Shown here: positions 188 through 24,663 of the stretch, one piece after another
Layout of the letters: every line of letters starts with the position of its first letter
Position numbering within the stretch: position 1 is the stretch's first letter
NCBI GenBank assembly: GCA_947167135.1
Contig: CAMVGV010000014.1
Coordinates: forward strand, 1-53,377
DNA length: 53,377 bases
Reading direction: 5' to 3'
Source: an uncultured Lachnospiraceae bacterium
Lineage (GTDB): Bacteria; Bacillota; Clostridia; Lachnospirales; Lachnospiraceae
Notes under the pieces: generated by a model
Told to the model about the DNA's origin: nothing
What the model saw: only the letters and a program-made list of their open reading frames with translations
The model's database searches: none
Position numbers and translations under genes: made by a program

Positions 188-982
188 ATGCTTGAAAGAA
201 TAAATGTCTTATTTACCGGGGGACTGGACTCCTCCTACACAATGATGTATTTTTCAAAGTTCCCTGTGGAGATACAGCCCTATTATCTGAAGGACAACAG
301 ACCTTCGGAGGGTTATGAGCTTAAGGCCATCAGGGACATCATCACGGATATAAGGAAGAATCAGGACACCAGAGCGAATATCAGGGAGGTCATCACAAAG
401 CCAACCTATGAGATAAAGCCGGACCGCGAGATACAGAATGCCTACCGCTATATGTTCAAGACAGCAGGCTTCGGGAAGCAGTACGGCTTTATCGCGAGAT
501 TCGCAAAGCAGGAAGGAATAAAGGGGCTTTTTGTATCCCTTGTGCATACTCCCTTCGGAAGGGGGAATATGGCCGTTCGTAACAGCGGCGGCGTTGAAAG
601 GGTAGAGGATGAGGATATGGAGTACTATCGCCTGGATCCGTCAAAAACGGAGAAAAACCTTTTCACCCTTTTTGAAAACGTACTTCTTCCGCCCTCTTTT
701 ATGAGAACCAAGGAAGAGGAGATGGAGGAAATGAAAAAGCTGGGCTTTGAGGACTCCATAAAAAAGACCTGGTTCTGCTACTGGCCCGTTGACGGTGAAC
801 CCTGCGGAACCTGCCCACCATGCAGGGATCTTATAAGGGACGGTATGACCTGGAGATTTACGAAAGAAGGGCTAAAGCGCTACGAGGAGGATCAGAAGGT
901 TCCCGCCTGGCGTCATAAGCTCAGGGATTATAAGCTCACACTTTCAGATAAGTGGTATGAGTTTAAGATGAGGATGGGATGA
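188..982 (+). CDS. QueC-like PP-loop ATP pyrophosphatase, copy 1
   Basis: This 264-residue protein has a PP-loop TGGLDS at residues 10-15, the ATP-binding signature of N-type ATP pyrophosphatases. A C-x8-C-x2-C-x2-C cluster at Cys197, 206, 209 and 212 matches the zinc site of QueC (7-cyano-7-deazaguanine synthase). Enzymes of this class adenylate a carboxylate before attack by ammonia or another nucleophile. The middle of the protein does not look like standard QueC, and no queD or queF is nearby, so a role in preQ0 synthesis is doubtful. It is a paralogue of the protein at 7431-8207: both share an EIQPYYL block and a TWRFT block. GGGAGA at 173-178 supports the ATG start. It sits at the head of a glycan gene block, so amidation or ligation of a sugar acid or amino acid is a possibility, by inference only. 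Confidence 0.75.
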   Translation: MLERINVLFTGGLDSSYTMMYFSKFPVEIQPYYLKDNRPSEGYELKAIRDIITDIRKNQDTRANIREVITKPTYEIKPDREIQNAYRYMFKTAGFGKQYGFIARFAKQEGIKGLFVSLVHTPFGRGNMAVRNSGGVERVEDEDMEYYRLDPSKTEKNLFTLFENVLLPPSFMRTKEEEMEEMKKLGFEDSIKKTWFCYWPVDGEPCGTCPPCRDLIRDGMTWRFTKEGLKRYEEDQKVPAWRHKLRDYKLTLSDKWYEFKMRMG

Positions 983-991
983 CGGAAAATA

Positions 992-1924
992 ATGGATGAT
1001 ACTAGGCCTCTGGTGACCTGTGTGATAACCAGTTATAAACGGGATAAGGAGACGGTGGGACGTGCCCTGAAAAGCGTCATTCAGCAGACCTATTCCCCTA
1101 TAGAGGTATTTATTATAGACGATAACAGGGGAGAGGGGGCAGAGGAGTATTCAAAGGCTCTGTCTGAGCTGTCCGATTTATCGGACAAGGTGCAGGTTAT
1201 AAAAACCGAGAGAGGGCACGGAGCCCAGAGAGCCAGAAATACCGGGATAGAGCACGCAAACGGAAAGTATGTGGCCTTCCTTGATGATGATGATGAGTGG
1301 CTCCCGGAGAAGCTTGAAACCCAGGTGCCGATCCTTGAAGGGGATCCTGAGGTGGGTTTATGCTACAGCAGGGGCTACCTTATTAACGAGGCCTTTGATC
1401 CGCCAAGGGTCACTGAATTTAAGTCGGTAAAAAATGCTTCTTATGAGGATCTTCTTAGGGATGACGGCATAGGCTCAACCACCCAGGCCGTGATACCGAG
1501 AAGTGTTTTCGATAAGGTTGGTATGTTTGACGAGAGCTTTCCCGCGAGGCAGGACTATGAAATGTGGATACGCATTTCAAAAAGCTATAAGACGGCGGGA
1601 AGCGATAAGTGCCTCTACAAATACCATAAAAATAAGGGAACCGGCCAGGTTTCCCATAAATGGAAGAACTGCCTTAAGGGGCATGAGCTAATTTATGAAA
1701 AATACAGAGAAGATATTGATAAGGACAGGGACGCAAAGTTTAACGTGGTCTTTCATGTAGCCCACTATCTTAATGAGGGCGCTAATGCAAAGAAGGATCC
1801 GGCATTAAAGCTCAAGGCGGTTCTTAAGTATATCGAAGCCTTTTTCACCTCTCCTTCGAAGTTTCTGCTTCAGGGAAAATACAGACTGCAGAAAATTAAA
1901 AGGAACAGGAGAAACGGATCATGA
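992..1924 (+). CDS. Glycosyltransferase family 2
   Basis: The 310-residue protein opens with a GT-A nucleotide-sugar binding segment (LVTCVITSYKR at about residues 7-17) and has an acidic metal-binding stretch (AFLDDDDEWLPEK) near residue 95-107, the DXD region of GT2 enzymes. No membrane segment is evident, so it probably acts at the cytoplasmic face of the membrane, adding a sugar to a lipid-linked glycan. It follows the PP-loop gene by 9 bp and overlaps the next gene by 4 bp (ATGA), which indicates one transcript and coupled translation. Donor and acceptor cannot be read from the sequence. Confidence 0.9.
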   Translation: MDDTRPLVTCVITSYKRDKETVGRALKSVIQQTYSPIEVFIIDDNRGEGAEEYSKALSELSDLSDKVQVIKTERGHGAQRARNTGIEHANGKYVAFLDDDDEWLPEKLETQVPILEGDPEVGLCYSRGYLINEAFDPPRVTEFKSVKNASYEDLLRDDGIGSTTQAVIPRSVFDKVGMFDESFPARQDYEMWIRISKSYKTAGSDKCLYKYHKNKGTGQVSHKWKNCLKGHELIYEKYREDIDKDRDAKFNVVFHVAHYLNEGANAKKDPALKLKAVLKYIEAFFTSPSKFLLQGKYRLQKIKRNRRNGS

Positions 1925-2958
1925 GGCTTCTGTTTTTCGGGGATTTTTCATATGATTTTGATCATGTGGCGGAGGATATCCTTTCTATCGGTGAATTTGC
2001 CCGGGGAAAGGAGGCTAAGGTCATCCTTAACCTGGAGGGGCCAATTACCGACGGAGCCGGTAAGGAGATAAGGAAGAGGGGAAAACACCTGCCGCAGAAG
2101 GGGAAATGCAGTGAAGCCCTGACAGCTCTCGGGGTTTCCGGAGTGACTCTGGCGAATAACCATATGATGGACTATTCCCTTAAGGGACTTACTGATACTT
2201 TAAGTGAACTGGATAAGTTCGGGATAAAGCACACCGGAGCGGGAAGCGATCTGAAAAAAGCCCTTGAACCCATGGTCTTTAGCGAAGGAGAGGAGAGCGT
2301 GGCTGTCTTCAGCTTCGGATGGGATATAGAGGAAACGGTTTATGCAGGTTTACATAAATCGGGATGTGCTCCCCGAAAGGAAAAGGTGATCTTTGATACT
2401 ATCCGGGAGTATTCCGCGGAAAACCCCGGCAGAAGGATCATAGTGGCGCTCCACTGGGGCTTTGAATATAATCCCTATCCGCTGCCCTGTGATATAGAGC
2501 TTGCAGGGAAGCTTTGTAAAATGGATCCGGTCTGCGCTGTTATCGGCCACCATTCCCACTGCCCCCAGCCTTTTGAAATGATAAACGAGAAGCCTGTATT
2601 TTTTTCTCTCGGGAATTTCTACTACTCGTCAAGAAGGCATAAGTATTCTGCCAGAAGCTTTGATCTTGAGCCCTCAAATCTCTGCGATTACTGTATGGCA
2701 GCTCTTCTTGATACGGCAGATATGAGCGCGGAGCCTTTTGTCTTTTACTATAACCTGGAGAAGGACAGAACAGAATACCGGGAAGATCTGATGATCCCGG
2801 TCGCTATGCCTGACATTGACTATAAGACGCAAGAATACCGGCGCTTTGCATTAAGCAGGGCGCTTCATAAGAATCCCATCCCCGGCCCCGGAAGGCTTGA
2901 AAGCGGTTTGGCATTTTATATGTTCAACCTGAAAAGGGATCTGTCAAAATATCTGTGA
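1921..2958 (+). CDS. CapA/PgsA-like metallophosphatase family protein
   Basis: The 345-residue protein matches the CapA fold (calcineurin-like). It has FFGDFS at the N-terminus, ILNLEGPI near residue 37, TLANNHMMDY near 80, an ALHWGFEY block near 178 and a GHHSHCPQPFE block near 208. These are the metal-ligand motifs of poly-gamma-glutamate capsule proteins. CapA-type proteins are needed for poly-gamma-glutamate export or anchoring. This copy lacks an obvious signal peptide or N-terminal membrane helix, unlike CapA of Bacillus, so its location is unclear. It overlaps the GT2 gene by 4 bp and converges on the tupA-like gene 6 bp away. Its company suggests a role in an amino-acid-containing surface polymer. 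Confidence 0.85.
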   Translation: MRLLFFGDFSYDFDHVAEDILSIGEFARGKEAKVILNLEGPITDGAGKEIRKRGKHLPQKGKCSEALTALGVSGVTLANNHMMDYSLKGLTDTLSELDKFGIKHTGAGSDLKKALEPMVFSEGEESVAVFSFGWDIEETVYAGLHKSGCAPRKEKVIFDTIREYSAENPGRRIIVALHWGFEYNPYPLPCDIELAGKLCKMDPVCAVIGHHSHCPQPFEMINEKPVFFSLGNFYYSSRRHKYSARSFDLEPSNLCDYCMAALLDTADMSAEPFVFYYNLEKDRTEYREDLMIPVAMPDIDYKTQEYRRFALSRALHKNPIPGPGRLESGLAFYMFNLKRDLSKYL

Positions 2959-2963
2959 AAGAA

Positions 2964-2988
2964 GTCAACAAGAACCGTCCCAATTGAC
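2964..2988. repeat. REP-like GAACCGTCCC motif at a gene end
   Basis: A 25-bp segment starts GTCAACAAGAACCGTCCC and ends AATTGAC, with inverted 5-bp tips (GTCAA/TTGAC). Read on the minus strand it encodes the last residues (VNWDGSC) and the stop codon of the tupA-like gene. Related segments are at 3921-3938 (AGTCCCCATTGACTCCCC) and 7353-7373 (GAGAACCGTCTCCATTGACT), the latter covering the racemase stop. GGGACGGTTCT-type motifs are familiar extragenic palindromes in many bacteria. Assignment to that class is from memory, not from a search. Confidence 0.5.
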
Positions 2989-3879
2989 TCCCGGCAGACG
3001 GATCATTTTCCCCAGCATTTCATCAGTGCCTTCGGGAATCCAGGTACACTGGCCGCTGGAGGGGGTAAAGGTCATTTCACCGAACTTTATGCTCCCGTCA
3101 TTTAAGTGATAAAGATCCACCCTTACATAGGGGAATCCCTTTGAAAGCTCTGCTGCGAGCTCAGTCATTTTTTCATAGTTTGAAGGCTTTTCCGGAAGGA
3201 CTTCATACACCGGGTATGTGGCGGTTCTGTAGGGAAGGAGCTTCCAGTCCTTATCAAAAAAGGCTAAGCGGGCCTTGCCTGAGCGGCCTCCGATGTATTC
3301 ACAGCAAACAGGATCCCCGTTAAAACAGTGGAACTTATAGTCCATAAGATCCGATCCGTTATTATCGACGAATTCCTCGGCGATTATCTTTCTCTTTATC
3401 CCGTAGTACTGCATCTGGAAACCAAAGCGGAAAGCGAAGTCAAACATCATCCAGCGCCGGAATTCCTTAGCCGCGGCTTTTTTGTCAAAGGCAGACTTAT
3501 CAAGGACTATCATATTAGTATTGCAGGCGTGGTTTGTCTTTAATACAAAGCGGTCAGGAAGCGCATCAAAATCAATATCTTCAAATCTGTCCCAGGCGCC
3601 TAAAAGGGGGATCAGGTATTCTTCACCGATCCTTGTTTTTATCCAGTCCCGGACGGCAAATTTGTCGGAAAGCGTTTTCATTTCCGGAGTAACGCCAAAG
3701 AGCTTTATCCAGTTTATCTTGTCACACCAGGTTTTGGGAGGATCGAGATGAAGCTCCCGGCCGTTGCATTTCCTAAACCAGCGCTTTAATGCAAGGGGAC
3801 GCAGGGGAACCGGTGTAAGTGCCTCACCGTAATAGGAGAGGAGAATGATTATATTATTGATAAGGCTGCTTTTTCTCAT
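2965..3879 (-). CDS. TupA-like ATP-grasp protein
   Basis: The 304-residue protein resembles the TupA-like ATP-grasp family, named after the teichuronopeptide biosynthesis protein of alkaliphilic Bacillus. Recognisable blocks are KTWCDKINWIKLF, a FVLKTNHACNTN segment (probable ATP-binding strand), IIAEEFVDN and DYKFHCFNGDP, and near the C-terminus VRVDLYH followed by FGEMTFTPSSG, which carries the metal-binding acid. ATP-grasp enzymes join a carboxylate to an amine through an acyl phosphate. The start is uncertain: the reading frame is open to 3963, but homology begins at the ATG at 3879, and no clear ribosome binding site is visible. It is the only gene on the minus strand between 188 and 14985. 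The C-terminal residues lie in a repeat-like motif. Confidence 0.75.
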   Translation of the reverse strand: MRKSSLINNIIILLSYYGEALTPVPLRPLALKRWFRKCNGRELHLDPPKTWCDKINWIKLFGVTPEMKTLSDKFAVRDWIKTRIGEEYLIPLLGAWDRFEDIDFDALPDRFVLKTNHACNTNMIVLDKSAFDKKAAAKEFRRWMMFDFAFRFGFQMQYYGIKRKIIAEEFVDNNGSDLMDYKFHCFNGDPVCCEYIGGRSGKARLAFFDKDWKLLPYRTATYPVYEVLPEKPSNYEKMTELAAELSKGFPYVRVDLYHLNDGSIKFGEMTFTPSSGQCTWIPEGTDEMLGKMIRLPGVNWDGSC

Positions 3880-3946
3880 AATGCTGACATTATAGCTTTT
3901 TTGTCCCGGATTGCAAATGGAGTCCCCATTGACTCCCCGTTGCCAC

Positions 3947-3975
3947 TTGAATATATTGACCAAAATGTTTATAAT
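3947..3975 (+). promoter_or_regulatory. Sigma-A type promoter for the ABC transporter operon
   Basis: TTGAAT (3947-3952) and a perfect TATAAT (3970-3975) are separated by 17 bp. The first downstream gene starts at 4049, leaving a leader of about 65 nt ending in a GAGGAG ribosome binding site. No operator-like symmetry is evident. Confidence 0.75.
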
Positions 3976-4048
3976 AGCGGAGTTGTTTCAAAGAAAAATG
4001 CGATAAAATCATTTTTGTAAGTATGATTTGGAAAAGAGGAGTTTTATT

Positions 4049-5089
4049 ATGAAAAAAAGGATACTTTCGATCCTGCTTACTGCAGGATTTACCCTTGGAC
4101 TTTTGTCAGGCTGTGCCGGAGCGCAGAGTGCCCAAAGCCCTGCTGCTGAGCCTCAGGCGGAAAGCCAGGCTGAGGACGCGTCCGGCAGCAAGGATGAGGC
4201 AAAGGATATCACGGTAAATGTAGGCGATCAGGCAAACTTCTTTCTTGTAAAGGTTGCTGAGAAAAAGGGCTTTTTCGAAGAGGAATTCGGTCCGGACGGG
4301 ATCACCATCCATTCCGAGATCTTTGCAAAGATGGGCCCCGCCATCATCGAGGCAATGGCGGCGGGAGATGTGGACTTGAGCATCGTGGGAGTTTTCCCCG
4401 TGGTCAATGCAAATAATGCCGGAAATAAGATAATGATGCTTTCAAGCGGAAACTTTACCGAGGATGGATTCCGTCTCGTGGTCGGACCTGATTCAAAGGT
4501 AGAGAAGGTTGAGGACCTTAATAGCCTGAAGATCGGTGTTCCCTTCGGTGCTGCCGAGCACCAGATCACTCTGCAGATACTCGAAAATCACGGCCTTGAC
4601 GATACAAAGGTGGAGCTCGTAAATCTTCAGCAGGCTGACGCTCTTACGGCACTTCTCGGAGGAGAGATAGATGCGGCACTCTTCAACAGCGGGACCTTAA
4701 GCGCGGCAGAGGAAGCAGGGGCAAAGACCATAGCTACCAATAAGGAAGTGGGTCTTATCGTAAATCCCGTAATAGGCAGAAAAGACTTTGTGGAAGCAAA
4801 TCCCGAGATCACATCCCGCTTCTTAAAGGTACTTGACAAGACCGCGAAGTGGATAGACGAGAACGAGGACGAGACCGTTAAGATCGCCGCCGAGGTAAAC
4901 GGAGCCGATGAAGAGGGCATAAGGGTAAGCCTTCTTTCAAGAGGAAGGGCGATCTCAATAGATGATGAGCATTTTAAGGATCCCATCAATTCCACTCTGG
5001 AATTCGCGCGTGCCCAGGGGCTTATAGGTGACCTTAAGTATGAGGACGTGGTGGATACTTCTTACTTTGAGAATGCGGGGATCGAATAA
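4049..5089 (+). CDS. ABC transporter substrate-binding lipoprotein (SsuA/TauA/NMT1-like)
   Basis: The 346-residue protein starts with a lipoprotein signal: a basic tip (MKKR), a hydrophobic core and the lipobox LLSGC, so the mature protein is tethered by lipidated Cys. An Ala/Gln/Glu-rich linker follows. The body has the NMT1/SsuA pattern: FFLVKVAEKKGFFEEEFG, AIIEAMAAGDVDLSIVG, and LKIGVPFGAAEHQ. This family binds sulfonates, nitrate, taurine, pyrimidine precursors or similar small anions; the ligand cannot be told here. The ATG at 4049 is chosen because GAGGAG lies just upstream and the signal peptide begins there; an upstream in-frame codon at 4028 is less likely. It is the first gene of a four-gene operon ending with a racemase. 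Confidence 0.9.
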   Translation: MKKRILSILLTAGFTLGLLSGCAGAQSAQSPAAEPQAESQAEDASGSKDEAKDITVNVGDQANFFLVKVAEKKGFFEEEFGPDGITIHSEIFAKMGPAIIEAMAAGDVDLSIVGVFPVVNANNAGNKIMMLSSGNFTEDGFRLVVGPDSKVEKVEDLNSLKIGVPFGAAEHQITLQILENHGLDDTKVELVNLQQADALTALLGGEIDAALFNSGTLSAAEEAGAKTIATNKEVGLIVNPVIGRKDFVEANPEITSRFLKVLDKTAKWIDENEDETVKIAAEVNGADEEGIRVSLLSRGRAISIDDEHFKDPINSTLEFARAQGLIGDLKYEDVVDTSYFENAGIE

Positions 5090-5101
5090 AGCGTACAGCT
5101 G

Positions 5102-5887
5102 ATGAAAAAATGGATGCAGATGTCAAAAAAGCATAAGATCCTTAGCGTGTGCGGTGTACTGCTGATCATTCTTATCATACTGTACTGGCAGATAGGTTCT
5201 GAAAGAGGGTGGATAAATTCCATCCTCCTTTCGTCGCCTTCAGACATAGCGGCATCCTTCAGATCACTGTGGGGCAGCGGAAGCCTGCAGAAGCATATTC
5301 TGGTCAGCTTCAAGAGGGTTATGATAGGTTATGTTTCAGGAGCCGGATTGGGGATAATGTTTGGTTTTATCCTTTCCACCATGCCGTCTCTTGAGAAGCT
5401 CTTCAGCTTTTCTCTGGCCATTATCCGGCCGATACCCGCTCTTGCCCTGTTTCCCCTTTTTATTCTGTGGTTCGGTATAGGGGAAGGATCAAAGATCATG
5501 GTCATTGCCTTCATGTCATTCTGGCCAACCTTCCTGAATACGGAAGAAGGGGTGAGACAGGCGGACAAGAATCTTCTGGAGCTGGCAGATGCCCTTCAGA
5601 AGGGAAGAGTCACAAAGATGGCAACTGTGCTCCTTCCTTCCACGCTTCCCTATATCTTCGCAGGGCTCAGGCTTGCAATAAGCCGTGCCTGGGGAGGGGT
5701 CGTTGTGGCAGAAATGCTGGCAGCGAGTTCCGGAATAGGTTTTCTTATCGAATACTCGAGAGATATGTCCCAGACTGCGACCATGTTTACCGGTGTGATC
5801 ACGATAGCGATTATAGGCTTCACTGCGGATCTTCTGCTCAGGATCCTTCAGGACAGGATCTGCTACTGGCATACGGAGGTAAAGTGA
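5102..5887 (+). CDS. ABC transporter permease (SsuC/TauC-like)
   Basis: The 261-residue integral membrane protein has an N-terminal helix (ILSVCGVLLIILIILYW) and about five further membrane segments. The cytoplasmic EAA loop is visible as ELADALQKGRVTKMATVLLP near residue 160-178, which contacts the ATPase. The segment RPIPALALFPLFILWFGIG is typical of the SsuC/NrtB type. It lies 12 bp after the substrate-binding gene and 1 bp before the ATPase gene. The ribosome binding site is weak, so translation may depend on the preceding gene. Confidence 0.9.
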   Translation: MKKWMQMSKKHKILSVCGVLLIILIILYWQIGSERGWINSILLSSPSDIAASFRSLWGSGSLQKHILVSFKRVMIGYVSGAGLGIMFGFILSTMPSLEKLFSFSLAIIRPIPALALFPLFILWFGIGEGSKIMVIAFMSFWPTFLNTEEGVRQADKNLLELADALQKGRVTKMATVLLPSTLPYIFAGLRLAISRAWGGVVVAEMLAASSGIGFLIEYSRDMSQTATMFTGVITIAIIGFTADLLLRILQDRICYWHTEVK

Positions 5888-5888
5888 T

Positions 5889-6674
5889 ATGGCAGGTATG
5901 AATGAAGTAAATATCAGTCATATCCGTCAGGATTTCCTTATGCCAACAGGGGGTCTGGAAGTATTAAGGGATATAAATATCGATCTCCGGGGAGGGGAAT
6001 TCGTTTCCATTGTAGGGGAGAGCGGCTGCGGAAAGAGTACGCTTTTACGTATCATTGCCGGGCTTGATAAACCTACGGACGGAGAGGTTCTGATAGGTGG
6101 AGAAAAGGTTAACGGAGTCTCCTCAAAGGTGGGAATCCTCTTTCAGGAGTCGAGACTTCTGCCCTGGTATTCTACCGAAAAGAACATTTCTTACGGCCTT
6201 CCCAGAGGGATGGACAGAAATGAAGGAAGAGAAAGGGTCAGATCCCTTATTGATACAGTTGGCTTAAATGGCTTTGAAAAGGCGCTTCCTTCCCAGCTTT
6301 CGGGCGGAATGCAGAAAAGAGTTGCCATTGCCCGTACTCTTGCCGGTCATCCGAAGGTTCTTTTACTGGACGAGCCCTTTGCAGCTCTTGATGCCTTTAC
6401 GAAAATGAACATGCAGGATGAGATTCTGCGTATCTGGGAGAGGGAGAAAATAACTACTCTTCTTGTCACCCATGATATAGATGAGGCGATCTATCTCGGG
6501 GAGCGTGTTGTGATGATGTCTCCGAAGCCCGGGGTCATAAAGAAGGTGATACCTATAGACCTTCCCGAGGATCACAGCCGTACCAGTGATGAATTTGACG
6601 CATACAGAAGGGAGATCTTTAAGGAATTCTTCGGGAGCGATAAGAGGATGTCCCAGTGGTTCAGTGATGATTAA
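5889..6674 (+). CDS. ABC transporter ATP-binding protein (SsuB/TauB-like)
   Basis: The 261-residue ATPase has Walker A GESGCGKST near residue 42-50, a Q-loop (LFQESRLLPW) near 90, the signature LSGGMQKR near 140, Walker B VLLLDEPFAALD near 160 and the H-loop THDIDEA near 194. It powers uptake through the neighbouring permease. GGAGG lies about 10 bp upstream of the ATG. The next gene, a racemase, overlaps its end by 8 bp, so all four genes should be co-translated. Confidence 0.93.
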   Translation: MAGMNEVNISHIRQDFLMPTGGLEVLRDINIDLRGGEFVSIVGESGCGKSTLLRIIAGLDKPTDGEVLIGGEKVNGVSSKVGILFQESRLLPWYSTEKNISYGLPRGMDRNEGRERVRSLIDTVGLNGFEKALPSQLSGGMQKRVAIARTLAGHPKVLLLDEPFAALDAFTKMNMQDEILRIWEREKITTLLVTHDIDEAIYLGERVVMMSPKPGVIKKVIPIDLPEDHSRTSDEFDAYRREIFKEFFGSDKRMSQWFSDD

Positions 6675-7371
6675 AGAAAAAAAGAAGCTTGGAATAATCG
6701 GCGGCATGGGACCTCTTGCCGCTGCTTTCTTTTACAGGGCAGTGGTGGAGCATACAGAAGCTCTGTCCGATCAGGAGCACATAATCACATATATGATAAG
6801 TGATCCCACCATACCTAAGAGGGTGGAATACATTCTTGGGGAAAACAGTGAGTCTCCCCTCGGCGCACTGATAGATACCGCGGTAAAGCTGGAGGAAATG
6901 GGAGCGGAGATAATAGCCATGCCCTGTGTCACGGCCCATTTTTTTTATGAGAAGATCTCGGCTTCTGTTTCCGTCCCTATGATAAATATGCTGGATGAGA
7001 CAGTCCGGTATCTTAAAATTAAGGGGATCAACAGCGCGGGGATACTTGCAACCAGAGCTACCATAAAAAGCGCCATAGTTCAGGCTGCCCTTGAAAAGGC
7101 CGGAATAGAAGCGGTTTTACCAAAGGAAGAAGAGAATGAGATCATTTCGAGGGTGATCTTTGAAGAGATAAAGAAAGGACAGAAGGCCGATACGGACAGC
7201 CTTTTAGGTGTGATGGATTCCCTTATCGAAAGGGGCGCAGGTAAGTGCCTTATCGCCTGCACCGATCTTTCCGTATGCTTTTATGAAAGGGAAGATGAGA
7301 GATATGTGGATATGATGAAGCTTCTCGCGGCGGCCTGTGTCAGGGAAGTCAGCGAGAACCGTCTCCATTGA
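6667..7371 (+). CDS. Aspartate/glutamate racemase family protein
   Basis: The 234-residue protein starts with GIIGGMGPLAAAFFYRAVVEHT, typical of the cofactor-independent Asp/Glu racemase family. The first catalytic Cys is in MPCVTAH and the second in LIACTDLS. The usual PCNTAH has Val in place of Asn here, and the second motif has CTD rather than CTE, so the substrate may differ from plain Asp. The ATG at 6667 overlaps the ATPase gene by 8 bp; a longer in-frame opening from 6586 lies inside that gene and is rejected. Sitting behind an ABC importer and inside a glycan locus with amino-acid activating enzymes, it may supply a D-amino acid for a surface polymer. That link is inference. The stop codon lies in a GAACCGTC repeat-like motif. 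Confidence 0.85.
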   Translation: MIKEKKKLGIIGGMGPLAAAFFYRAVVEHTEALSDQEHIITYMISDPTIPKRVEYILGENSESPLGALIDTAVKLEEMGAEIIAMPCVTAHFFYEKISASVSVPMINMLDETVRYLKIKGINSAGILATRATIKSAIVQAALEKAGIEAVLPKEEENEIISRVIFEEIKKGQKADTDSLLGVMDSLIERGAGKCLIACTDLSVCFYEREDERYVDMMKLLAAACVREVSENRLH

Positions 7372-8296: not shown

Positions 8297-8345
8297 CAGG
8301 TGGCCGGACTGCTCATTATTTTTGACAGAAAAACTGAGGTATATT

Positions 8346-16535: not shown

Positions 16536-17498
16536 ATGAGCAAGGTTTACATAATTATGTATCATTATGTCAGGAGGATCCGCGGCAGCAGGTATCCGGG
16601 AATAAAGGGACTCGAAACCGAGGACTTTGTAAAACAGTTGGATTTCCTTAAGGAAAACGATTTCTCATTTATCCGCGCAGAGGATCTTATCGCCTCCTAT
16701 TATGAGGGATATAAGCTTCCCGAAAGGGCAGTGCTCCTTACCTTTGACGATGCCTATTCGGATCATTTTGATACTGTTTTTCCGATCCTGAAGGAAAGGG
16801 GGATACAGGGCTCGTTTTTTGTGCCAGGGGAGATTCTGGACCAAAGAAACGTTCTGCCTGTGAATAAGATACACTTTTTGCTGGCGGCGGAGGCGGATCA
16901 CCACATGCTTAAGCATAAGCTCCTTGATATTCTGGACTATTTCCGTGGACAAAACACGGATCTTCCGGCTGATGAGCTATTATTGGCAGAGTTCGAGAAG
17001 CCCGGGAAATACGATGATAAGGAAACCGTATTTATTAAGAAAATGCTGCAGTATGCACTGCCCGAGGCTTTGAGGGACATTATCCTTGCCCGGCTTTTCG
17101 AAGAATTTGTGGGTGTGAAGGAGGAAGCTCTGTGGGATGAGCTTTATCTTAAGGATTATCAGATGAGGCTTATGAAGCAAAGCGGTATGTTCATCGGAGC
17201 CCATGGCTATCATCATTACCATCTGGGCGAGGCTCCCGTAGAAGAAATGAGGAAGGATATAGAAAAGGGACTAAATATCCTCAGAGATTGCTTAGACAGG
17301 AATTCCTGGGTCATGAATTATCCCTACGGCTCATTTAATGAACAGGTTGAGGAGACCATACGCTCCCTTGGTGCGAAGTTGGCAGTGACAACCGCTGTGG
17401 GAATAAACGATACGGAGAGAAACGATGCCTTTCATATCAGCAGGCTGAATACAAACGATTTCCCTCCGAAAAGCCTCCGGTTCAGGGAATACCGGTAG
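16536..17498 (+). CDS. Polysaccharide deacetylase (NodB domain)
   Basis: The 320-residue protein has NodB motif 1 TFDDAYSDH near residue 69 (catalytic base and metal Asp), SFFVPGE near 91, a histidine motif GAHGYHHYHLG near 223 and NYPYGSFNE near 263 (motif 3). An insert of about 100 residues separates the first two and the later motifs. No signal peptide is seen, so a cytoplasmic substrate such as a lipid-linked or nucleotide sugar is more likely than cell wall. Deacetylation would expose an amine, which would suit later N-acylation by the adenylation/carrier/GNAT set. That link is inference. Confidence 0.88.
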   Translation: MSKVYIIMYHYVRRIRGSRYPGIKGLETEDFVKQLDFLKENDFSFIRAEDLIASYYEGYKLPERAVLLTFDDAYSDHFDTVFPILKERGIQGSFFVPGEILDQRNVLPVNKIHFLLAAEADHHMLKHKLLDILDYFRGQNTDLPADELLLAEFEKPGKYDDKETVFIKKMLQYALPEALRDIILARLFEEFVGVKEEALWDELYLKDYQMRLMKQSGMFIGAHGYHHYHLGEAPVEEMRKDIEKGLNILRDCLDRNSWVMNYPYGSFNEQVEETIRSLGAKLAVTTAVGINDTERNDAFHISRLNTNDFPPKSLRFREYR

Positions 17499-17552: not shown

Positions 17553-17586
17553 CTATAGCAGATACTGCGGCTTGGGAGAAAAAAAT

Positions 17587-18618
17587 ATGGATTTTAATAA
17601 GAGAAAGATAATAGCGGAGCTCGGAATGACCCACGATGGGTCTTTAGGGCAGGCAAAATGCATGATCATAGCCGCAGCACGGTGCGGAGTTGACGCGGTT
17701 AAACTTCAGACCCATATCTCCGGGGCAGAGACTATAAAAAATGCCCCCAAACCCCCTTATTTTAAGGGAGAGGGAAGATATGAATTCTTTAAGCGTACGG
17801 CCTTTGATATGGATCAGTGGAAGGAGCTTAAGGAATGCGCAAGGGAAAATAAGGTGGAATTCATTTCATCTCCCTTTTCCATTGAAGCGATCGACTTCCT
17901 CCTGGAGCTTGGTATCGACTGCTTCAAGGTGCCGAGCGGTGAGATCACAAATATTCCCTATCTGGTCCACCTGGCGGAGGCGAAGGTTCCAGTCATAGTG
18001 TCAAGTGGCATGAGCTCTCTTAAGGAGCTTGATGAGTGTATGGAGATATTTTTGAAGAGAGGCTGCAATGCGGCTCTTATGCAGTGTACCTCAGAGTATC
18101 CCTGCGGTCCTGAGCATGTGGGATTAAATATAATCGATCTCTTTAAGGAAAGGTATCCCGGAGTGCCTTTGGGATTCTCCGACCATACAGGCGGGGAATG
18201 GGCTTCCATAGCCGCATTCCAGAAGGGGGCGCATTTAATAGAAAAGCACTTTACCCTAAGTAAGCTTATGTACGGACCCGATGCGAAGATGTCAATGGAA
18301 CCCGATGAAATGGCTGAGCTCTGTTCTTCCATAAAGAATTTGGAGATCGCTCTTTCCAATCCGGTAGATAAGTCAGGTGCCGATGCATTCAGCGAGATGA
18401 AGGTGATCTTTCAGAAGAGCATTGTGGCGATAACGGATATTCCGAAGGGCGCAGCCATCACCGAAGATATGATAGGCTATAAAAAGCCCGGAACGGGAAT
18501 CCCCACAAAGTACTATAAGGAGATCATCGGGAAAAAGACAAAGCGGGAGCTCCACTTTGACGATATTATTGGGTTTGATGATATCGAAGGCTTTGAAAAG
18601 CTGAGCGATCAGGAGTAA
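17587..18618 (+). CDS. neuB: N-acylneuraminate/nonulosonate synthase
   Basis: The 343-residue enzyme has the NeuB barrel: IIAELGMTHDGSLGQA at the start, DAVKLQTH near residue 36-43, FKVPSGEI near 115, SSGMSS near 137 and LGFSDHTGG near 195-203. A C-terminal SAF (antifreeze-like) domain follows from about residue 280 (KSIVAITDIPKGAAITEDMI). It condenses phosphoenolpyruvate with a C6 amino sugar to give a nonulosonic acid. With a hydrolysing 2-epimerase next to it, ManNAc is the simplest substrate (sialic acid). Legionaminic-type substrates are possible if the dehydratase and aminotransferase lie elsewhere. ATG 17587 is preferred over TTG 17572 because GGGAGA lies between them. Confidence 0.92.
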   Translation: MDFNKRKIIAELGMTHDGSLGQAKCMIIAAARCGVDAVKLQTHISGAETIKNAPKPPYFKGEGRYEFFKRTAFDMDQWKELKECARENKVEFISSPFSIEAIDFLLELGIDCFKVPSGEITNIPYLVHLAEAKVPVIVSSGMSSLKELDECMEIFLKRGCNAALMQCTSEYPCGPEHVGLNIIDLFKERYPGVPLGFSDHTGGEWASIAAFQKGAHLIEKHFTLSKLMYGPDAKMSMEPDEMAELCSSIKNLEIALSNPVDKSGADAFSEMKVIFQKSIVAITDIPKGAAITEDMIGYKKPGTGIPTKYYKEIIGKKTKRELHFDDIIGFDDIEGFEKLSDQE

Positions 18619-18625: not shown

Positions 18626-18720
18626 TGTCATTCTGAGCGAAGCATCCTGTCATTCTGAGCGAAGCATCCTGTCATTCTGAGTGAAGCATCCTGTCATTCT
18701 GAGCGGAGCGAAGAATCTTA
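18626..18720. repeat. Four tandem TGTCATTCTGAGCG units between neuB and neuC
   Basis: Units of 22 bp (TGTCATTCTGAGCGAAGCAT plus CC) start at 18626, 18648, 18670 and 18692. The third has GTGAAG in place of GCGAAG. The fourth ends as the standard family member (GGAGCGAAGAATCTTA). The neuB stop lies 8 bp before and the neuC ribosome binding site just after, so the array sits inside what is probably one transcript. Confidence 0.92.
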
Positions 18721-18741: not shown

Positions 18742-19896
18742 ATGAGAAAGATTTGCGTATTTTTAGGCGGGCGCGCCAATTACAGCTCAATAAAATCAGC
18801 TATGAGGGCTATAAAGGATCATCCTGATCTCACACTGCAGGTTATCCTCGCCGGACAGGGCCTGTCCGACAAGTTCGGTGATCTGGAGGGTATCCTTGAA
18901 AACGACGGCTTTTCCATAGATGAAAAGGTGCATATGCTGGTGGCGGGGGATAAGCCGATCTCCATGGTAAAGACTGCAGGTCTCGGGCTTCTGGGTATAT
19001 CGGACGCTCTTGATCATCTGCAGCCGGACTTCCTTATAGTCGTGGGGGACAGGTATGAGGTCATGGCAGCCACCATCGCCGCAGCCTATATGAATATAAG
19101 AGTTGCCCATACCATGGGAGGAGAGGTGACCGGAACCATAGATGAGAGTATCCGGCACGCCATCACCAAATTTGCCCATGTACACTTTCCTGCAAATAAG
19201 GAAGCGGGAGAACGGATAATTAAGCTCGGTGAGAGACCGGAGTATGTTTTTGTTGTGGGCTGTCCCAGAGTGGACCATGTGAAGGAGCTTCTTGACGGCG
19301 ACTCATCAATGCCGCTTGACCTCTATGATACCTTCGGAGGAGTAGGTCCGGTCTTTGATCTTAAGGAGCCATTTCTTTTAATATCGCAGCATTCCGTTAC
19401 GACCGAATACGGAGATGCAAAGGACAGGATAACAAATACCATTAAGGCCTGTGTCAGGACCGGATTAAATATAATCATCCTATGGCCCAATGCGGACGCG
19501 GGAACCGAGGGCATATCAACGGGGATACGACGCTACAGGGAAAAATATCCGGAGGCCCGTATACACGCCTTTAAGAATCTTCCGGCGGATATCTATACGA
19601 GGCTTATGAAGAATACCGCCTGTCTTGTGGGCAATTCCTCCAGCGGTATACGTGAGGGTGCATATATCGGTACACCCTGCGTTAATGTCGGTACAAGACA
19701 GAACGGCAGGGAAAGAGGACACAATGTTATCGATGTCTCACATGATGAAGACGGGATTTTCGAAGCCGTGAAAAAGCAGATAGAGCACGGTCCTTACCCA
19801 AGCGAGCCCATATACGGGGACGGGCATGCGGGAGTACAGATAGCAGAGATCCTTTCAAAGGTTGAAGTACCCGTCCAGAAGAGGATTGTTTATTAA
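18742..19896 (+). CDS. neuC: UDP-N-acetylglucosamine 2-epimerase, hydrolysing (NeuC/LegG type)
   Basis: The 384-residue enzyme has FLGGRANYSSIKSAM at the N-terminus, VVGDRYEVMAATIAA near residue 96-110, AHTMGGEVTGTIDESIRHAITK near 117-138 and VGNSSSGIREG near 297, the conserved blocks of the hydrolysing 2-epimerases. It releases UDP and forms ManNAc or a related 2-epimerised sugar for NeuB. It is separated from neuB by the tandem repeat array and from neuA by one base. Confidence 0.9.
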   Translation: MRKICVFLGGRANYSSIKSAMRAIKDHPDLTLQVILAGQGLSDKFGDLEGILENDGFSIDEKVHMLVAGDKPISMVKTAGLGLLGISDALDHLQPDFLIVVGDRYEVMAATIAAAYMNIRVAHTMGGEVTGTIDESIRHAITKFAHVHFPANKEAGERIIKLGERPEYVFVVGCPRVDHVKELLDGDSSMPLDLYDTFGGVGPVFDLKEPFLLISQHSVTTEYGDAKDRITNTIKACVRTGLNIIILWPNADAGTEGISTGIRRYREKYPEARIHAFKNLPADIYTRLMKNTACLVGNSSSGIREGAYIGTPCVNVGTRQNGRERGHNVIDVSHDEDGIFEAVKKQIEHGPYPSEPIYGDGHAGVQIAEILSKVEVPVQKRIVY

Positions 19897-19897
19897 T

Positions 19898-20611
19898 ATG
19901 GAGATACTTTCTATCATACCCGCAAGGGGCGGTTCAAAGGGGATACCGAAAAAAAATATGGTTGCGCTCTGCGGTCAGCCTCTTATAAAGTATACCTTTG
20001 ACGCAGCGAAGAAAAGCCGGCTTATAACGAGGAGTATACTGTCAACGGATGACGGGGACTTTGCCCGGTACGGGAAAGAAAACGGGATAGAGGCGCTGAT
20101 GAGGCCGGAGGAGCTTGCTGGAGACAGGACGCCGATGAAGGATGTGATAAACTATCACCTCGACGCTCTTAAAAAAAACGGTTACATACCCGATATCTTT
20201 ATCCTGCTGCAGCCCACCTCACCCTTAAGGACGGAGAGGCATATTGATGAAGCCCTTCAGGGGCTTATTGATGATAAGGAGGCTGACGCCACGGTAAGTG
20301 TGGTGGAGGTGCCCCATGAGTATCTTCCAATGAAGCTTATGGAGCTTAAGGAGGACGGAAGCCTTAAGTTTTTCCGTTCCGACGGTGAAAAATATACTAC
20401 GAGGCAGGAGCTTCCGCATCTTTACGCAAGGAACGGTGCGGCGGTATATGCGGTCTATACGGAGAGCTACCGGAAGACAGGGAGCCTTTACGGCACAAGG
20501 TGCATTCCTTACTTTATGAAGCCGGAGGAGTCGGTGGATATCGACACATCCTTTGACCTGTTTCTTGCAGAGAGTATATTGAGAGATTTTTCAAGATGGA
20601 AGTCATCCTGA
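19898..20611 (+). CDS. neuA: CMP-nonulosonate (acylneuraminate) cytidylyltransferase
   Basis: The 237-residue enzyme begins ILSIIPARGGSKGIPKKN, the CTP-binding loop of NeuA. LLQPTSPLRTERHIDEAL follows near residue 104-121, and VDIDTSFDLFLAE is near the C-terminus. It activates the NeuB product with CMP for a glycosyltransferase. The ATG at 19898 follows the neuC stop immediately; an upstream in-frame ATG at 19862 lies inside neuC and is rejected. The last two codons and the stop (TCA TCC TGA) lie inside the first unit of the tandem repeat array, so the present C-terminus (WKSS) may have been created by repeat insertion. Confidence 0.92.
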   Translation: MEILSIIPARGGSKGIPKKNMVALCGQPLIKYTFDAAKKSRLITRSILSTDDGDFARYGKENGIEALMRPEELAGDRTPMKDVINYHLDALKKNGYIPDIFILLQPTSPLRTERHIDEALQGLIDDKEADATVSVVEVPHEYLPMKLMELKEDGSLKFFRSDGEKYTTRQELPHLYARNGAAVYAVYTESYRKTGSLYGTRCIPYFMKPEESVDIDTSFDLFLAESILRDFSRWKSS

Positions 20612-20960: not shown

Positions 20961-21021
20961 ACAAAATGCTTAACTTAAGATCTTTCCCAACGGGTAAGGA
21001 ATAAAGAGAGGTTTACATAAA

Positions 21022-21996
21022 TTGGGATACAGTGAAGTTGAATTTGAGCACGATGCGGTATTTCTCGTGACCGGAGGAGCGGGCTTCATAGGCTCGAACC
21101 TCTGTGAAGCCCTGTTAAAAAAGGGCCATAGGGTTAAATGCCTTGACGACCTTTCCACGGGAAAGAAGGAAAACACCGATATTTTCGCCTCTGATCCGAA
21201 TTACGAATTCATAAAGGGCGACGTGAAGGATCTTGATACCTGTATGAGGGCCTGTGAAGGCGTAACGCATGTTTTGCATGAGGCGGCCTGGGGCTCTGTT
21301 CCGAGAAGCATTGAAATGCCCCTTTTTTACGAGGAGAATAATATCCGTGGCACCTTAAATATGATGGAGGCCGCAAGACAGCAGGGGGTAAAGAAATTTG
21401 TCTATGCCTCCAGCTCTTCCGTGTACGGGGATCATCCCGTGCTTCCCAAAAAAGAGGGACAGGAGGGTAACCTTCTTTCACCCTATGCCCTTACCAAAAG
21501 GGCGACGGAAGAATACGGGAAGCTTTACTATAAGCTCTATGGCCTCGATACCTACGGACTCCGCTACTTCAATGTTTTCGGGAGACGTCAGGATCCGGAG
21601 GGAGCATACGCCGCGGTTATACCGAAATTTATAAGGCAGCTTATAAATGATGAGCGCCCCACCATAAACGGGGACGGGAAACAGAGCAGGGATTTCACCT
21701 ATATCGAAAATGTGATAGAGGCGAACCTGAAGGCCTGCAAAGCTTCCCGCGAAGCAGCGGGGGAAGCCTACAACGTAGCATACGGCGGCAGGGAATATCT
21801 GATCGATATCTATTATCTCCTCTGTGAAGCGCTGGGCAAGGATATCGAGCCTGTATTTGGCCCGGAAAGGCCGGGAGATATCCGCCACAGTAATGCGGAC
21901 ATCAGTAAAGCAAAAGAAAAATTAGGCTATTCACCGGAATATGATTTTGAGCGGGGAATAAAGGAAGCAATAGAGTGGTACAGGGAAAATCTTTGA
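21022..21996 (+). CDS. NAD-dependent sugar-nucleotide epimerase (SDR, WbpP/Gne-like)
   Basis: The 324-residue enzyme has the Rossmann motif TGGAGFIGSN near residue 18-27, VLHEAAWGSVPRS near 88, the SSSSVYG segment near 135 and the YxxxK pair in YALTKRATEEYGK near 155. RYFNVFGRRQDPEGAYAAVI is typical of UDP-GlcNAc/UDP-GalNAc (or uronic acid) C4-epimerases of the WbpP group. The start is TTG at 21022, preceded by AGAGAGG. It probably supplies a GalNAc- or uronate-type precursor to the glycan. Its stop overlaps the following gene. Confidence 0.85.
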   Translation: MGYSEVEFEHDAVFLVTGGAGFIGSNLCEALLKKGHRVKCLDDLSTGKKENTDIFASDPNYEFIKGDVKDLDTCMRACEGVTHVLHEAAWGSVPRSIEMPLFYEENNIRGTLNMMEAARQQGVKKFVYASSSSVYGDHPVLPKKEGQEGNLLSPYALTKRATEEYGKLYYKLYGLDTYGLRYFNVFGRRQDPEGAYAAVIPKFIRQLINDERPTINGDGKQSRDFTYIENVIEANLKACKASREAAGEAYNVAYGGREYLIDIYYLLCEALGKDIEPVFGPERPGDIRHSNADISKAKEKLGYSPEYDFERGIKEAIEWYRENL

Positions 21997-23813
21997 ATAT
22001 AAAGGAAACAGGGCTTAAAAAAATCATCGGATACATAATCACTCTTTCGGCACCGGTGATAATGTTTTTTCTGCTCCAATGCTGTGTCCAGTTTCCGCCG
22101 ACCGGAATACAGGAGGAGAACGCTTTTTTTTCCTGTATCTGGATGGAGGCTCTGAGCCTTACCCTCATACTTTTTTCCGGAAGCATAAAGATACCACTGG
22201 CAGCCCTTTCATTTTTATTTTTACTGCTTGGAACCGCAGAACACTATGTCTACAGGTTCCGGGCCTCTTTTCTTACACCAATTGACTTTTTTTCTGCGGG
22301 TACGGCCTTTAACGTAGCGGCAAATTATGACTATACTCCGGATCCCGCCCTTATTTTTGTATTTGTCTCATTTATTATCCTGACAGCACTTATCATTTTT
22401 CTATGTCCTTCCGGAAGGGATGTAAAGTTTTTCGGGAACACCTCATTGCGTATTACCTATGCCTTTATTTTTCTGATAAGTCTTGTTGGAATGACGCAGT
22501 ATATCAGGCATTACGACCGTTATGAAAATAAGGCTCTGGATATCAGCGATAATGCCTTTCACTCGTACAGGAACAACAGAAGGGAAGGAGTGATCATCCG
22601 TCTTCTCTATGATTCGGGCTATATTTTTGTAAGGGAGCCGGAGGGATACTCGGCTTCCCGGGAGGAGGAGATCCTGGAGGAATACGGGAAAAAGGCGGCA
22701 GGAGCTGTTCCGGCAAAGGAGGAGCTCCCGGATATAGTCGTTGTCATGAACGAATCCTTTTCAGATCCCTCCCTTGTAGGCCCCATCGAAACAAATACGG
22801 ATTATATGCCCTTTGTACACTCTCTTCAGGAAGGAAGGGAGAATACGGTGACCGGAGTGATCAATGTTTCGGTACAGGGAGGAAATACCCCGAATACGGA
22901 ATTTGAGTTTCTGACAGGATGCTCCATGGCCTTTCTTCCCAGGGGTTCAATACCCTTCCAGCAGTACCTGACCCACGACATTCCTGCAATGCCGAGGTAT
23001 CTGTCCTCGGTTGGATATGAGACCGTCGCCATGCATCCCTATCTCTCAAACGGCTGGAACAGGACAAGAGCCTATCCGTATCTCGGTTTTTCAGATATGA
23101 AGTTCCTGGAGTATTTTGAGGAAATGGATCCGGAGTACGTAAGGGAATATATCTCGGATAAGTTCTTTTTATCGGCCATAAGGGATGAGGTTGACAGGAG
23201 AAATGATGACGGGCCGGTATTTTCATTTAATGTCACCATGCAGAATCACAGCTCCTATTCCAAGGATTATGATAATCTGAAAAAGGATATCAGGATCCTT
23301 TCGGATGAGGATACTCCCTATCTCCACGAGATGGAAAATTATCTGAACCTTGTAAAGCTTTCGGATGATGCCTTCAGGGAGATGGTGGAGTATTACGAGG
23401 ACTCCGACAGGAAGACCCTTCTCGTATTTTTCGGGGATCATCAGCCTCCGACCATAAACTACGAACCGGTATTTCATAATCTGGGAACAGACCGGAGAAA
23501 TCTGAGCCGGGAAACGGAATGGGATATTTACAGGGTTCCCTTTGTGATCTGGGCAAATTACGATATCGGGGAAGAAAAGGGTCTGGAAACCAGTGCGAAT
23601 TATCTCGGGAATCTGGTGATGAAAAAAGCGGGGATCCCTCTTTATGATTTCAGAAGCTATTTAGAGGAGCTTTACAAAGAGGTTCCGGTGGTCTCTGCCG
23701 TAAGAACCGTGGATAAAAACGGACAGAGCAGGAATACGGGTGAGGAGGAGCCGGATCTGAGCGAATACGGCAGGCTTCAATACTATGAGCTGTTTGACGG
23801 AAAAGCTGAATAA
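21993..23813 (+). CDS. LtaS-like phosphoglycerol transferase (alkaline phosphatase superfamily), copy 1
   Basis: The 606-residue protein has an N-terminal block of about five membrane helices, then a large extracytoplasmic enzyme domain. The LtaS-type metal and nucleophile residues are present: Glu254 in MNESFSD, the nucleophile Thr299 in GGNTPNTEFE, and Asp482-His483 in FGDHQP. Enzymes of this group move glycerol phosphate or similar groups onto lipid anchors or glycans outside the cell. TTG 21993 overlaps the epimerase stop (TTGA) and is preferred; GTG 21975 is an alternative. Its closest relative in the window is 24720-26540. It is coupled to the next gene by a 29-bp overlap. Confidence 0.85.
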   Translation: MNIKETGLKKIIGYIITLSAPVIMFFLLQCCVQFPPTGIQEENAFFSCIWMEALSLTLILFSGSIKIPLAALSFLFLLLGTAEHYVYRFRASFLTPIDFFSAGTAFNVAANYDYTPDPALIFVFVSFIILTALIIFLCPSGRDVKFFGNTSLRITYAFIFLISLVGMTQYIRHYDRYENKALDISDNAFHSYRNNRREGVIIRLLYDSGYIFVREPEGYSASREEEILEEYGKKAAGAVPAKEELPDIVVVMNESFSDPSLVGPIETNTDYMPFVHSLQEGRENTVTGVINVSVQGGNTPNTEFEFLTGCSMAFLPRGSIPFQQYLTHDIPAMPRYLSSVGYETVAMHPYLSNGWNRTRAYPYLGFSDMKFLEYFEEMDPEYVREYISDKFFLSAIRDEVDRRNDDGPVFSFNVTMQNHSSYSKDYDNLKKDIRILSDEDTPYLHEMENYLNLVKLSDDAFREMVEYYEDSDRKTLLVFFGDHQPPTINYEPVFHNLGTDRRNLSRETEWDIYRVPFVIWANYDIGEEKGLETSANYLGNLVMKKAGIPLYDFRSYLEELYKEVPVVSAVRTVDKNGQSRNTGEEEPDLSEYGRLQYYELFDGKAE

Positions 23814-24663
23814 GAAAATAAGAAAGCGGACGGCCGCGGGGGCTGTACTCTTTCTCCTGATACTCGTATTTGTCATTCTTTCCTTCATAAAACGGAGCAG
23901 GGGTGATGCCGGGTACTCCTGGGTAAAGGATACAAAATATATAGTCCATGCCCTCGGGGGGATAAACGGGGATCAATATACGAACAGCAGGGAGGCTCTT
24001 ATCAATTCATATGAAAGGGGAGGCAGGGTCATTGAGGCGGATATAGAATATACTTCCGATGGGGAGATGGTACTCATACATAACTGGAAAAGGAAAACCC
24101 TGAAAAACCTCTTCGGCTATGAGACCGAATCGGAAGAAGAGCCGCTCTCCTTAAGCACCTTTAAGGAAATGAAGGTTTACGGGAAGTACACTACAATGAC
24201 CTTCCGTGAGCTTATGGAGTTTATGAAGGAGCACAGGGATATGATGCTGGTGCTGGACGGAAAGTACGAGGAAGAGGCTGATGTCCGGAGGCAGTACGGT
24301 GATATCTATAAAACCGCTTCTCTTTATGATCCGGAGATCCCCGACAGAATGATACCCCAGATCTATAATGAAGAGATGTATTCCACTGTTATGGAGATAT
24401 ATGACTGGAAGAGCGTGATCTTTACCTGGTATCAGCTTGACGGGGATACGCTGGATCCGGAAAAGATCTTTACTTTCTGTGATGAAAACAATATAAGGGT
24501 ATGTACTATGGAGGATGAAAAGGAGAACCCTCTTATAGACAGAACGGCAGCAAAGTATGACATAAATATCTATGTCCATACCATTAACGATGAGAATGTA
24601 AGGGACAGGCTGTTTGATTCGGGAGTTGCAGGGATCTATACGGATTTCCTGTTTGATAAATGA
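23785..24663 (+). CDS. Membrane-anchored GDPD-like phosphodiesterase family protein
   Basis: The 292-residue protein has an N-terminal membrane anchor (AVLFLLILVFVILSFI at about residues 20-35). The outer domain resembles glycerophosphodiester phosphodiesterases: YIVHALGGINGDQYTNSREA with the first His, VIEADIEYTSDGEMVLIHNW with the paired acids and second His, and a C-terminal INIYVHTIND segment. It is coupled to the LtaS-like gene before it. It might trim or recycle glycerol-phosphate units of the polymer. The start within the upstream gene (ATG 23785) could instead be TTG 23794. Confidence 0.75.
   Translation: MSCLTEKLNKKIRKRTAAGAVLFLLILVFVILSFIKRSRGDAGYSWVKDTKYIVHALGGINGDQYTNSREALINSYERGGRVIEADIEYTSDGEMVLIHNWKRKTLKNLFGYETESEEEPLSLSTFKEMKVYGKYTTMTFRELMEFMKEHRDMMLVLDGKYEEEADVRRQYGDIYKTASLYDPEIPDRMIPQIYNEEMYSTVMEIYDWKSVIFTWYQLDGDTLDPEKIFTFCDENNIRVCTMEDEKENPLIDRTAAKYDINIYVHTINDENVRDRLFDSGVAGIYTDFLFDK

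Follow-up and report, generated by a model that had tools for sequence, protein, structure and literature searches.

The stretch of DNA analyzed here (the window) is 53,377 nucleotides long and comprises an entire contig, CAMVGV010000014.1 (C14), of an uncultured Lachnospiraceae bacterium (GCA_947167135.1) whose genome measures 2.91 Mb and is 99.8% complete. It contains a conserved module of a stand-alone adenylation enzyme (A-domain), a carrier protein, an acyltransferase with a predicted tandem-GNAT fold and a NodB-type polysaccharide deacetylase, a module that is often accompanied by the nonulosonate genes neuB, neuC and neuA. We propose, at roughly even chances, that the module deacetylates an amino sugar in the cytosol and then attaches an aminoacyl group to its nitrogen in a carrier-dependent step, the sugar perhaps being neuraminic acid. 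The surface-glycan region to which these genes belong spans positions 188 to about 28000 and, as the window begins at a contig end, the locus is truncated upstream. An earlier note on this DNA had read the region as a locus for a sialic-like glycan that is N-acylated or extended with amino acids, possibly D-amino acids. The genes of the module and of the nonulosonate pathway are:

12138..13691, + strand, stand-alone adenylation enzyme (A-domain), putatively of amino-acid type (AMP-binding, 203.3 bits)
13692..13940, + strand, acyl/peptidyl carrier protein with its serine in DSH (weak carrier-family matches)
13933..14985, + strand, predicted tandem-GNAT N-acyltransferase (AlphaFold2 fold)
16536..17498, + strand, NodB-type polysaccharide deacetylase (Polysacc_deac_1, 78.9 bits)
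17572..18618, + strand, NeuB nonulosonate synthase (NeuB, 239 bits, plus SAF)
18742..19896, + strand, NeuC hydrolysing UDP-GlcNAc 2-epimerase (Epimerase_2, 236.1 bits; TIGR03568, 382.5 bits, cut-off 235.9)
19862..20611, + strand, NeuA-type cytidylyltransferase (CTP_transf_3, 81.7 bits)

The association of these genes was assessed from the GNAT gene. The GNAT-like protein was aligned with four relatives from the same family, one genome per species was then scanned, and the best 80 of the 249 relatives found were retrieved together with as much as 10 kb of flanking DNA to the left and right. Locus L074, with its GNAT gene in pieces, was removed by filter, so that the 80 counted loci are the window plus 79 of those 80, picked by similarity and with near-copies included. 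Dropped before the count were L016, L017, L018 and L020 (duplicates of loci already in the set), L019 (contig of 5.2 kb with a split GNAT gene, in two parts), and L021 and L022 (not retrieved via the GNAT gene). Counts over 80 loci use score, length and motif filters; those over 88 loci come from an earlier, looser scan, in which the NeuB count of 44/88 took in DAHP synthases (e.g., L029, PF00793 267.8 bits) and is replaced by the strict recount given here.

Within 10 kb of the GNAT gene, a carrier was found in 68/80 loci, NodB in 56/80, an A-domain in 52/80, NeuB in 35/80, NeuC in 32/80 and NeuA in 30/80, and NodB lies no more than 300 bases from the GNAT gene in 31/80. A complete set of NeuB, NeuC, NodB, carrier and A-domain occurs in 16/80 loci, including those of Robertmurraya, Saccharibacillus, Cellulosilyticum, Vibrio tapetis and several Lachnospiraceae and Clostridiales. 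Flanks were shorter than 8 kb on one side in 30/80 loci; among the 50 whose two flanks each reach 8 kb or more (full flanks), 32 have NeuB and 39 have NodB. When the nearest acyl loader in a full-flank locus is of amino-acid type (n = 8, including the window, L023 and L025, with L069 and L076 being near-copies), NeuB and NodB are each found in seven. By comparison, 22 control NeuB loci from the window's family, chosen among the strongest NeuB matches in genomes without a GNAT match, contained no GNAT gene, no NodB, one A-domain and four carriers. Three of these 22 loci are shorter than 19.9 kb and one, L175, failed the strict NeuB filter. The high counts around the GNAT gene against the low counts in the controls indicate that the module genes co-travel and do not normally belong to nonulosonate loci of the window's family. 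The contrast is somewhat favored, however, as the controls come from a single family and the GNAT loci from different phyla, and as the profiles were built on GNAT loci. Homologues lying mostly away from glycan loci, which the earlier note had named as evidence against its own interpretation, were not the rule: in a search run from the GNAT gene only, NodB or NeuB was found within 10 kb in 60/80 loci.

The GNAT-like protein itself has no NCBIfam match, none of 70 family members tested (0/70) matches Pfam, and a profile search of the family against solved structures returned no match. Its AlphaFold2 model (pLDDT, predicted local distance difference test, 92.2; pTM, predicted template modeling score, 0.89) has tandem GNATs and N-myristoyltransferases as its nearest folds, and in the predicted structure the tandem GNAT fold covers the whole chain. 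By predicted fold, the protein is a tandem N-acyltransferase. The ATG at 13933 is a more likely start than 13873, to judge from the sequence, and an open reading frame (ORF) beginning there overlaps the region of the carrier's stop codon by 8 bases. A tree of GNAT proteins tracks the neighboring acyl loader (A-domain, FkbH or KAS III), with 15 changes vs. a shuffled mean of 33.5 and an equally low number in 0/200.

The A-domain of the window scores 308 bits on the AA-adenyl-dom model, slightly below its cut-off of 317.4. Its pocket reads DMKMCSLGSK, with positions mapped by GrsA numbering, and has Asp at the alpha-amine position, as do the A-domains of L023 and L024 and both A-domains of L025. 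Asp at the first pocket place marks amino-acid A-domains. The pocket of the window therefore reads as amino-acid type, and relatives with Ser or Thr at that place probably load other acids. At the third place, the A-domains of the window, L023, L024 and L044 and both of those in L025 have Lys or Arg, from which an acidic side chain on the loaded amino acid might be weakly guessed. The carrier gives about 23 bits at best by profile and has its DSH motif at residue 31. L025 has, at 2-3642 and 19936-21032, another A-domain and another carrier together with formyltransferase-like, membrane O-acyltransferase-like and DltD-like genes (assigned by eye), which seem to form a Dlt-type set next to the N-acylation module. 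In L029 (11086-16089), and in the like loci L030, L032, L033, L035 and L036, the GNAT gene is found with an acid-type A-domain, a carrier, an oxidoreductase and a DAHP synthase (arrangement shown for L029), and these loci perhaps load an aromatic acid. In L044 of Succinivibrio (279-5369), an ornithine-cyclodeaminase-family protein, the GNAT, an Asp-type A-domain, a pyridoxal-phosphate-dependent decarboxylase and a carrier lie together; the locus recalls the alanine-dehydrogenase gene described for the C. difficile taurine-peptide locus.

NodB in the window has the TFDD and HGYHH motifs. Across 57 NodB ORFs, TFDD is present in 56 and the histidine motif in 55, while an N-terminal hydrophobic stretch is present in 0, so the deacetylase probably acts in the cytosol, prior to export. 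As in Nod factor loci, a deacetylase lacking an export signal stands beside a carrier and an acyltransferase; on the NodB model itself the window protein scores 24 bits (cut-off 240).

With regard to the nonulosonate, NeuC, NeuB and NeuA occur together in the window, as expected for a neuraminic acid pathway. NeuC exceeds the cut-off of the NnaA model (382.5 vs. 235.9), NeuB falls below that of NnaB (341.4 vs. 399.65), and NeuA matches the PseF model best, at 138 bits, below the cut-off of 205.7. Pseudaminic acid synthases are reported to read SFE at a position where Gly goes with neuraminic and legionaminic substrates (PMC7371886); PDB entry 8h2c reads SFE, and the window NeuB reads SGE. No LegC-type aminotransferase scored above cut-off in the genome, no aminotransferase was found among the 20 window proteins scanned, and the epimerase at 21022 reaches 162 bits on the LegB model (cut-off 475). 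Given NeuC above its cut-off, the glycine in NeuB and no LegC above cut-off, neuraminic acid is the likeliest nonulosonate, and the sugar is probably of neuraminic type.

From the genes, their co-travel, the acyltransferase fold and the pocket type, we infer a set of reactions, their order, the sugar and the amino acid. The locus would make a surface glycan containing a nonulosonic acid, with NeuC leading to N-acetylmannosamine (ManNAc) and NeuB and NeuA following. The A-domain would activate an amino acid in the cytosol and load it onto the carrier. The NodB-type deacetylase would strip the acetyl group from an N-acetylated sugar and so expose its amine, to which the tandem-GNAT enzyme would transfer the carrier-bound aminoacyl group. 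The sugar modified in this way, which is perhaps the nonulosonate, would then be built into the glycan and flipped outward. A bolder version, which we regard as possible yet doubtful, is that a portable deacetylate-reacylate cassette, centered on this tandem-GNAT family that lacks a Pfam model and using exchangeable loaders (amino-acid A-domain, acid A-domain, FkbH or KAS III), makes sialic acids in which another acyl group replaces the N-acetyl group. The product here would be a neuraminic acid with an N-aminoacyl group, the amino acid perhaps being an acidic one.

Several observations weigh against parts of this reading. The pocket reading follows a rule of thumb, and Arg at the third pocket place is also found in 18 acid-type A-domains, for which reason the basic residue is given little weight. 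The GNAT gene is absent from G079, the one other genome of the genus searched. A LegC-like protein (279 bits, cut-off 420) is encoded on another contig, through which a legionaminic route is possible. Moreover, NodB and GNAT occur with no NeuB in view in 25/56 NodB loci (11/39 with full flanks), so the modified sugar need not be a nonulosonate and may be a hexosamine. These pairs suggest, as a tentative alternative, that the same module and chemistry acylate another amino sugar, for example a lipid-linked unit derived from N-acetylglucosamine (GlcNAc), with the nonulosonate being a separate, ordinary part of the glycan. Consistent with this, the solved proteins that come closest to NodB of the window have names pointing to action on GlcNAc polymers, chitin or peptidoglycan, and along the GNAT tree NodB shows 13 changes, against a mean of 20.8 after shuffling, and NeuB 20, against about 26. 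Against it, NodB and NeuB are associated among the GNAT loci, NeuB being present in 31/56 loci with NodB vs. 4/24 without (p = 0.0015) and, with full flanks, in 28/39 vs. 4/11 (p = 0.04), relatedness being ignored in both tests.

The acyl group is also open to other interpretations. Among the 80 loci, the nearest loader is an A-domain without Asp in 34, FkbH in 18, KAS III in 8, of amino-acid type in 12 and none in 8, and the clade of the window branches among acid-type loaders on the GNAT tree. The A-domain might accordingly load a hydroxy or other carboxylic acid, giving a glycan with an unusual N-acyl group, which we judge unlikely given the Asp shared by the A-domains of the window, L023, L024 and L025, and given that AA-adenyl-dom and DltA are the models that score best, both below their cut-offs. 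The DltA score (253 bits), an LtaS-like protein nearby and the Dlt-like set with a membrane acyltransferase that seems, by eye, to be present in L025 could instead suggest a Dlt-like system in which the aminoacyl group is moved outside and esterified to a teichoic-type polymer. This is very improbable: the accompanying gene encodes a GNAT, the matches to DltA fall far short of the cut-offs (253.1 vs. 476; 233 vs. 559.85), and no DltB- or DltD-type gene was seen among the window ORFs up to 28072 (by eye, with Pfam run on 20).

The proposed N-aminoacylation has partial parallels in known systems. Nod factor synthesis uses NodB and NodA with the acyl carrier NodF, and shares with our proposal a first, cytosolic step that deacetylates an N-acetyl sugar and a second in which a carrier protein supplies the group for N-acylation; the window differs in its tandem GNAT, in an acyl group that is probably an A-domain-loaded amino acid, and in the presence of nonulosonate genes. 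The Dlt system likewise pairs a stand-alone amino-acid ligase with a carrier, and the likeness is limited to this pair, the window showing a GNAT in place of DltB- or DltD-type genes, of which none were seen. In C. botulinum, flagellin carries Leg5GluNMe7Ac (PMC5207245), written Leg5Ac7NMeGlu in PMC2674064, a nonulosonic acid bearing an amino acid; unlike the sugar proposed here it is legionaminic and on flagellin, and the enzyme adding the amino acid is not named in the available text of those two papers. In V. vulnificus CMCP6, Leg5Ac7AcAla is a nonulosonate with an alanyl group (PMC7371886), again legionaminic, and the main text of that paper contains no instance of the terms "acyl carrier," "deacetylase" or "adenylation." In C. 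difficile, type B flagellin bears taurine-Ala-Gly on Fuc3N (PMC5207245), with no nonulosonate and no carrier protein named in the available text. In Aeromonas, one group of flagellar islands encodes an acyl carrier as well as an AMP-dependent synthetase alongside pse genes, and others have a deacetylase or a GNAT (PMC7874193). The combination of nonulosonate genes with carrier and synthetase resembles the window. The differences are a pseudaminic sugar, the distribution of carrier-synthetase set, deacetylase and GNAT over three island groups, and the authors' reading of the genes, in the text available, as fatty-acid genes. Flagellar islands with carriers and acyl ligases have also been described in Enterobacteriaceae.

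A set of A-domain, carrier, GNAT and NodB with neuBCA was not found described in the literature searched, which largely excluded subscription papers. Amino-acid-bearing nonulosonates are already known from C. botulinum and V. vulnificus. Such amino acids are known by mass spectrometry and nuclear magnetic resonance, and the enzymes adding them are not named in the available text of the papers cited. If our proposal is true, a defined and widespread cassette with a readable loader pocket would make such sugars predictable from genomes and would offer a small set of proteins to test. Changes in the N-acyl group of sialic acids could alter recognition by host lectins and sialidases.

The remaining genes of the surface-glycan region are:

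188..982, + strand, QueC-like PP-loop enzyme 1 (27.5 bits)
992..1924, + strand, GT2 glycosyltransferase (107.9 bits)
1921..2958, + strand, CapA/PGA_cap-like protein (PF09587, 149.9 bits)
2965..3963, - strand, TupA-like ATP-grasp protein (PF14305, 167.6 bits)
4028..6674, + strand, sulfonate/taurine-type ABC transporter, three genes (NMT1, BPD_transp_1, ABC_tran)
6661..7371, + strand, Asp/Glu-type racemase (122.8 bits)
7431..8207, + strand, QueC-like PP-loop enzyme 2 (20.6 bits, below cut-off 22)
8322..9218, + strand, radical SAM protein (Radical_SAM, 40 bits; also in L023 and L025)
9215..10720, + strand, PMT-like membrane glycosyltransferase (PMT_2, 19.9 bits, below cut-off 26.1)
10720..12141, + strand, surface-carbohydrate protein, CDP-glycerol-transferase-like by eye (0 Pfam/NCBIfam families)
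15024..16424, - strand, Wzx-type flippase (Polysacc_synt, 79.2 bits)
21022..21996, + strand, NAD-dependent sugar epimerase/dehydratase (TviC model 296.5 bits, below cut-off 760)
21975..26540, + strand, two LtaS-like proteins flanking a GDPD-like protein (ORFs; first LtaS-like protein 50 bits on the LtaS model, below cut-off; the GDPD-like and second LtaS-like proteins named by eye)

All genes named in the earlier note are ORFs within 188..24663, most with profile support; it had omitted the ABC transporter, the radical SAM protein, the PMT-like and CDP-glycerol-transferase-like proteins, the epimerase, and the LtaS-like pair with the GDPD-like protein. Homologues of the 10720..12141 protein are found in 7/88 loci and adjoin the A-domain also in L023, L024 and L025.

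The CapA, TupA, GT2 and first PP-loop genes sit more than 10 kb from the GNAT gene, outside the fetched flanks; CapA, TupA and the first PP-loop gene are common to the window and its relative AD3010. CapC had no match in the genome, and a control search detected CapC in B. subtilis, so a CapBCA-type poly-glutamate machinery is not evident. The TupA family protein (167.6 bits) is present, as in the synthesis of teichuronopeptide, a polymer made up of glutamate and glucuronate.

Homologues of the racemase occur in 2/88 loci, as do those of the ABC binding protein, the permease in 3/88, a generic ABC ATPase in 18/88 and the PP-loop type in 4/88. L025, the next relative, whose A-domain is of the same kind, has other genes ahead of the module and no ABC transporter, racemase or second PP-loop gene within the 10 kb examined. 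The racemase could supply a D form, its tie to the A-domain being nearness alone. The interpretation in the earlier note is supported in part. Amino-acid acylation as put forward there gains from the GNAT gene occurring with glycan genes, carrier and A-domain far above controls and from the amino-acid type of the pocket; the involvement of the racemase does not gain, given its 2/88 loci and its absence from the L025 flanks. A cysteate or taurine decoration was also considered, from the match to CuyB, the sulfonate-type transporter and the taurine glycan of C. difficile, and is kept as a possibility only. The window racemase passes the CuyB cut-off (196.6 vs. 190), but so do 7/7 other racemases tested, which were taken from 28 listed relatives, and labeling it a cysteate racemase is therefore not specific. 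The ABC binding protein has SsuA and a taurine-binding protein as its nearest solved proteins and scores 147.9 bits on SsuA_fam, below the cut-off of 163.5. The cysteate/taurine reading was set aside because of the non-specific CuyB match, this sub-threshold score, and the L025 flanks lacking racemase and transporter.

The two PP-loop proteins are 38% identical to each other, retain TGGLDS and four Cys, and resemble QueC in the C-terminal cysteine region only. Relatives were found in three further genomes of 150 (one strong, two weak) and in one further genome of 291. This rare QueC-like family with four conserved Cys is represented by window 188-982 and 7431-8207, L022 and L166, and in three genomes (those of the window, G004 and G348) it lies in glycan loci with a TupA-like protein, assigned by eye in G348.

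Among the fetched loci, that of the Lachnospiraceae bacterium AD3010 is nearest by DNA, its longer aligned blocks being 84.5 to 95.5% identical to the window; within the module, DNA identity between the two is 85 to 92%. On the side that is cut off in the window, AD3010 has further glycosyltransferases, a nucleotide-sugar dehydrogenase and an O-acylation-like set (names by eye). The latter side includes, at L135 11628-17463, an FkbH-like protein, a reductase, and membrane O-acyltransferase-like and SGNH-like genes (by eye), possibly another acylation set. Between the second PP-loop gene and the radical SAM gene of the window lie 112 bases (8209-8320) with a promoter-like match of 11/12, which AD3010 lacks at the corresponding place, as judged from alignment ends. 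Units resembling GTCATCCTGAGCGAAGCGAAGGATCT form short intergenic repeats in the window, both tandem and dispersed (1-72, 18626-18705, 20602-20943, 28122-28214, 35396-35457, 39600-39773 and 52824-53005). They are also present in AD3010 and in contig C66 of the window's own genome (G000), and those at the left end of the window contig may have broken the assembly. On C66 (L021), neuB and neuC occur a second time in this genome, in a locus that also encodes a flippase and a glycosyltransferase of WbsX type.

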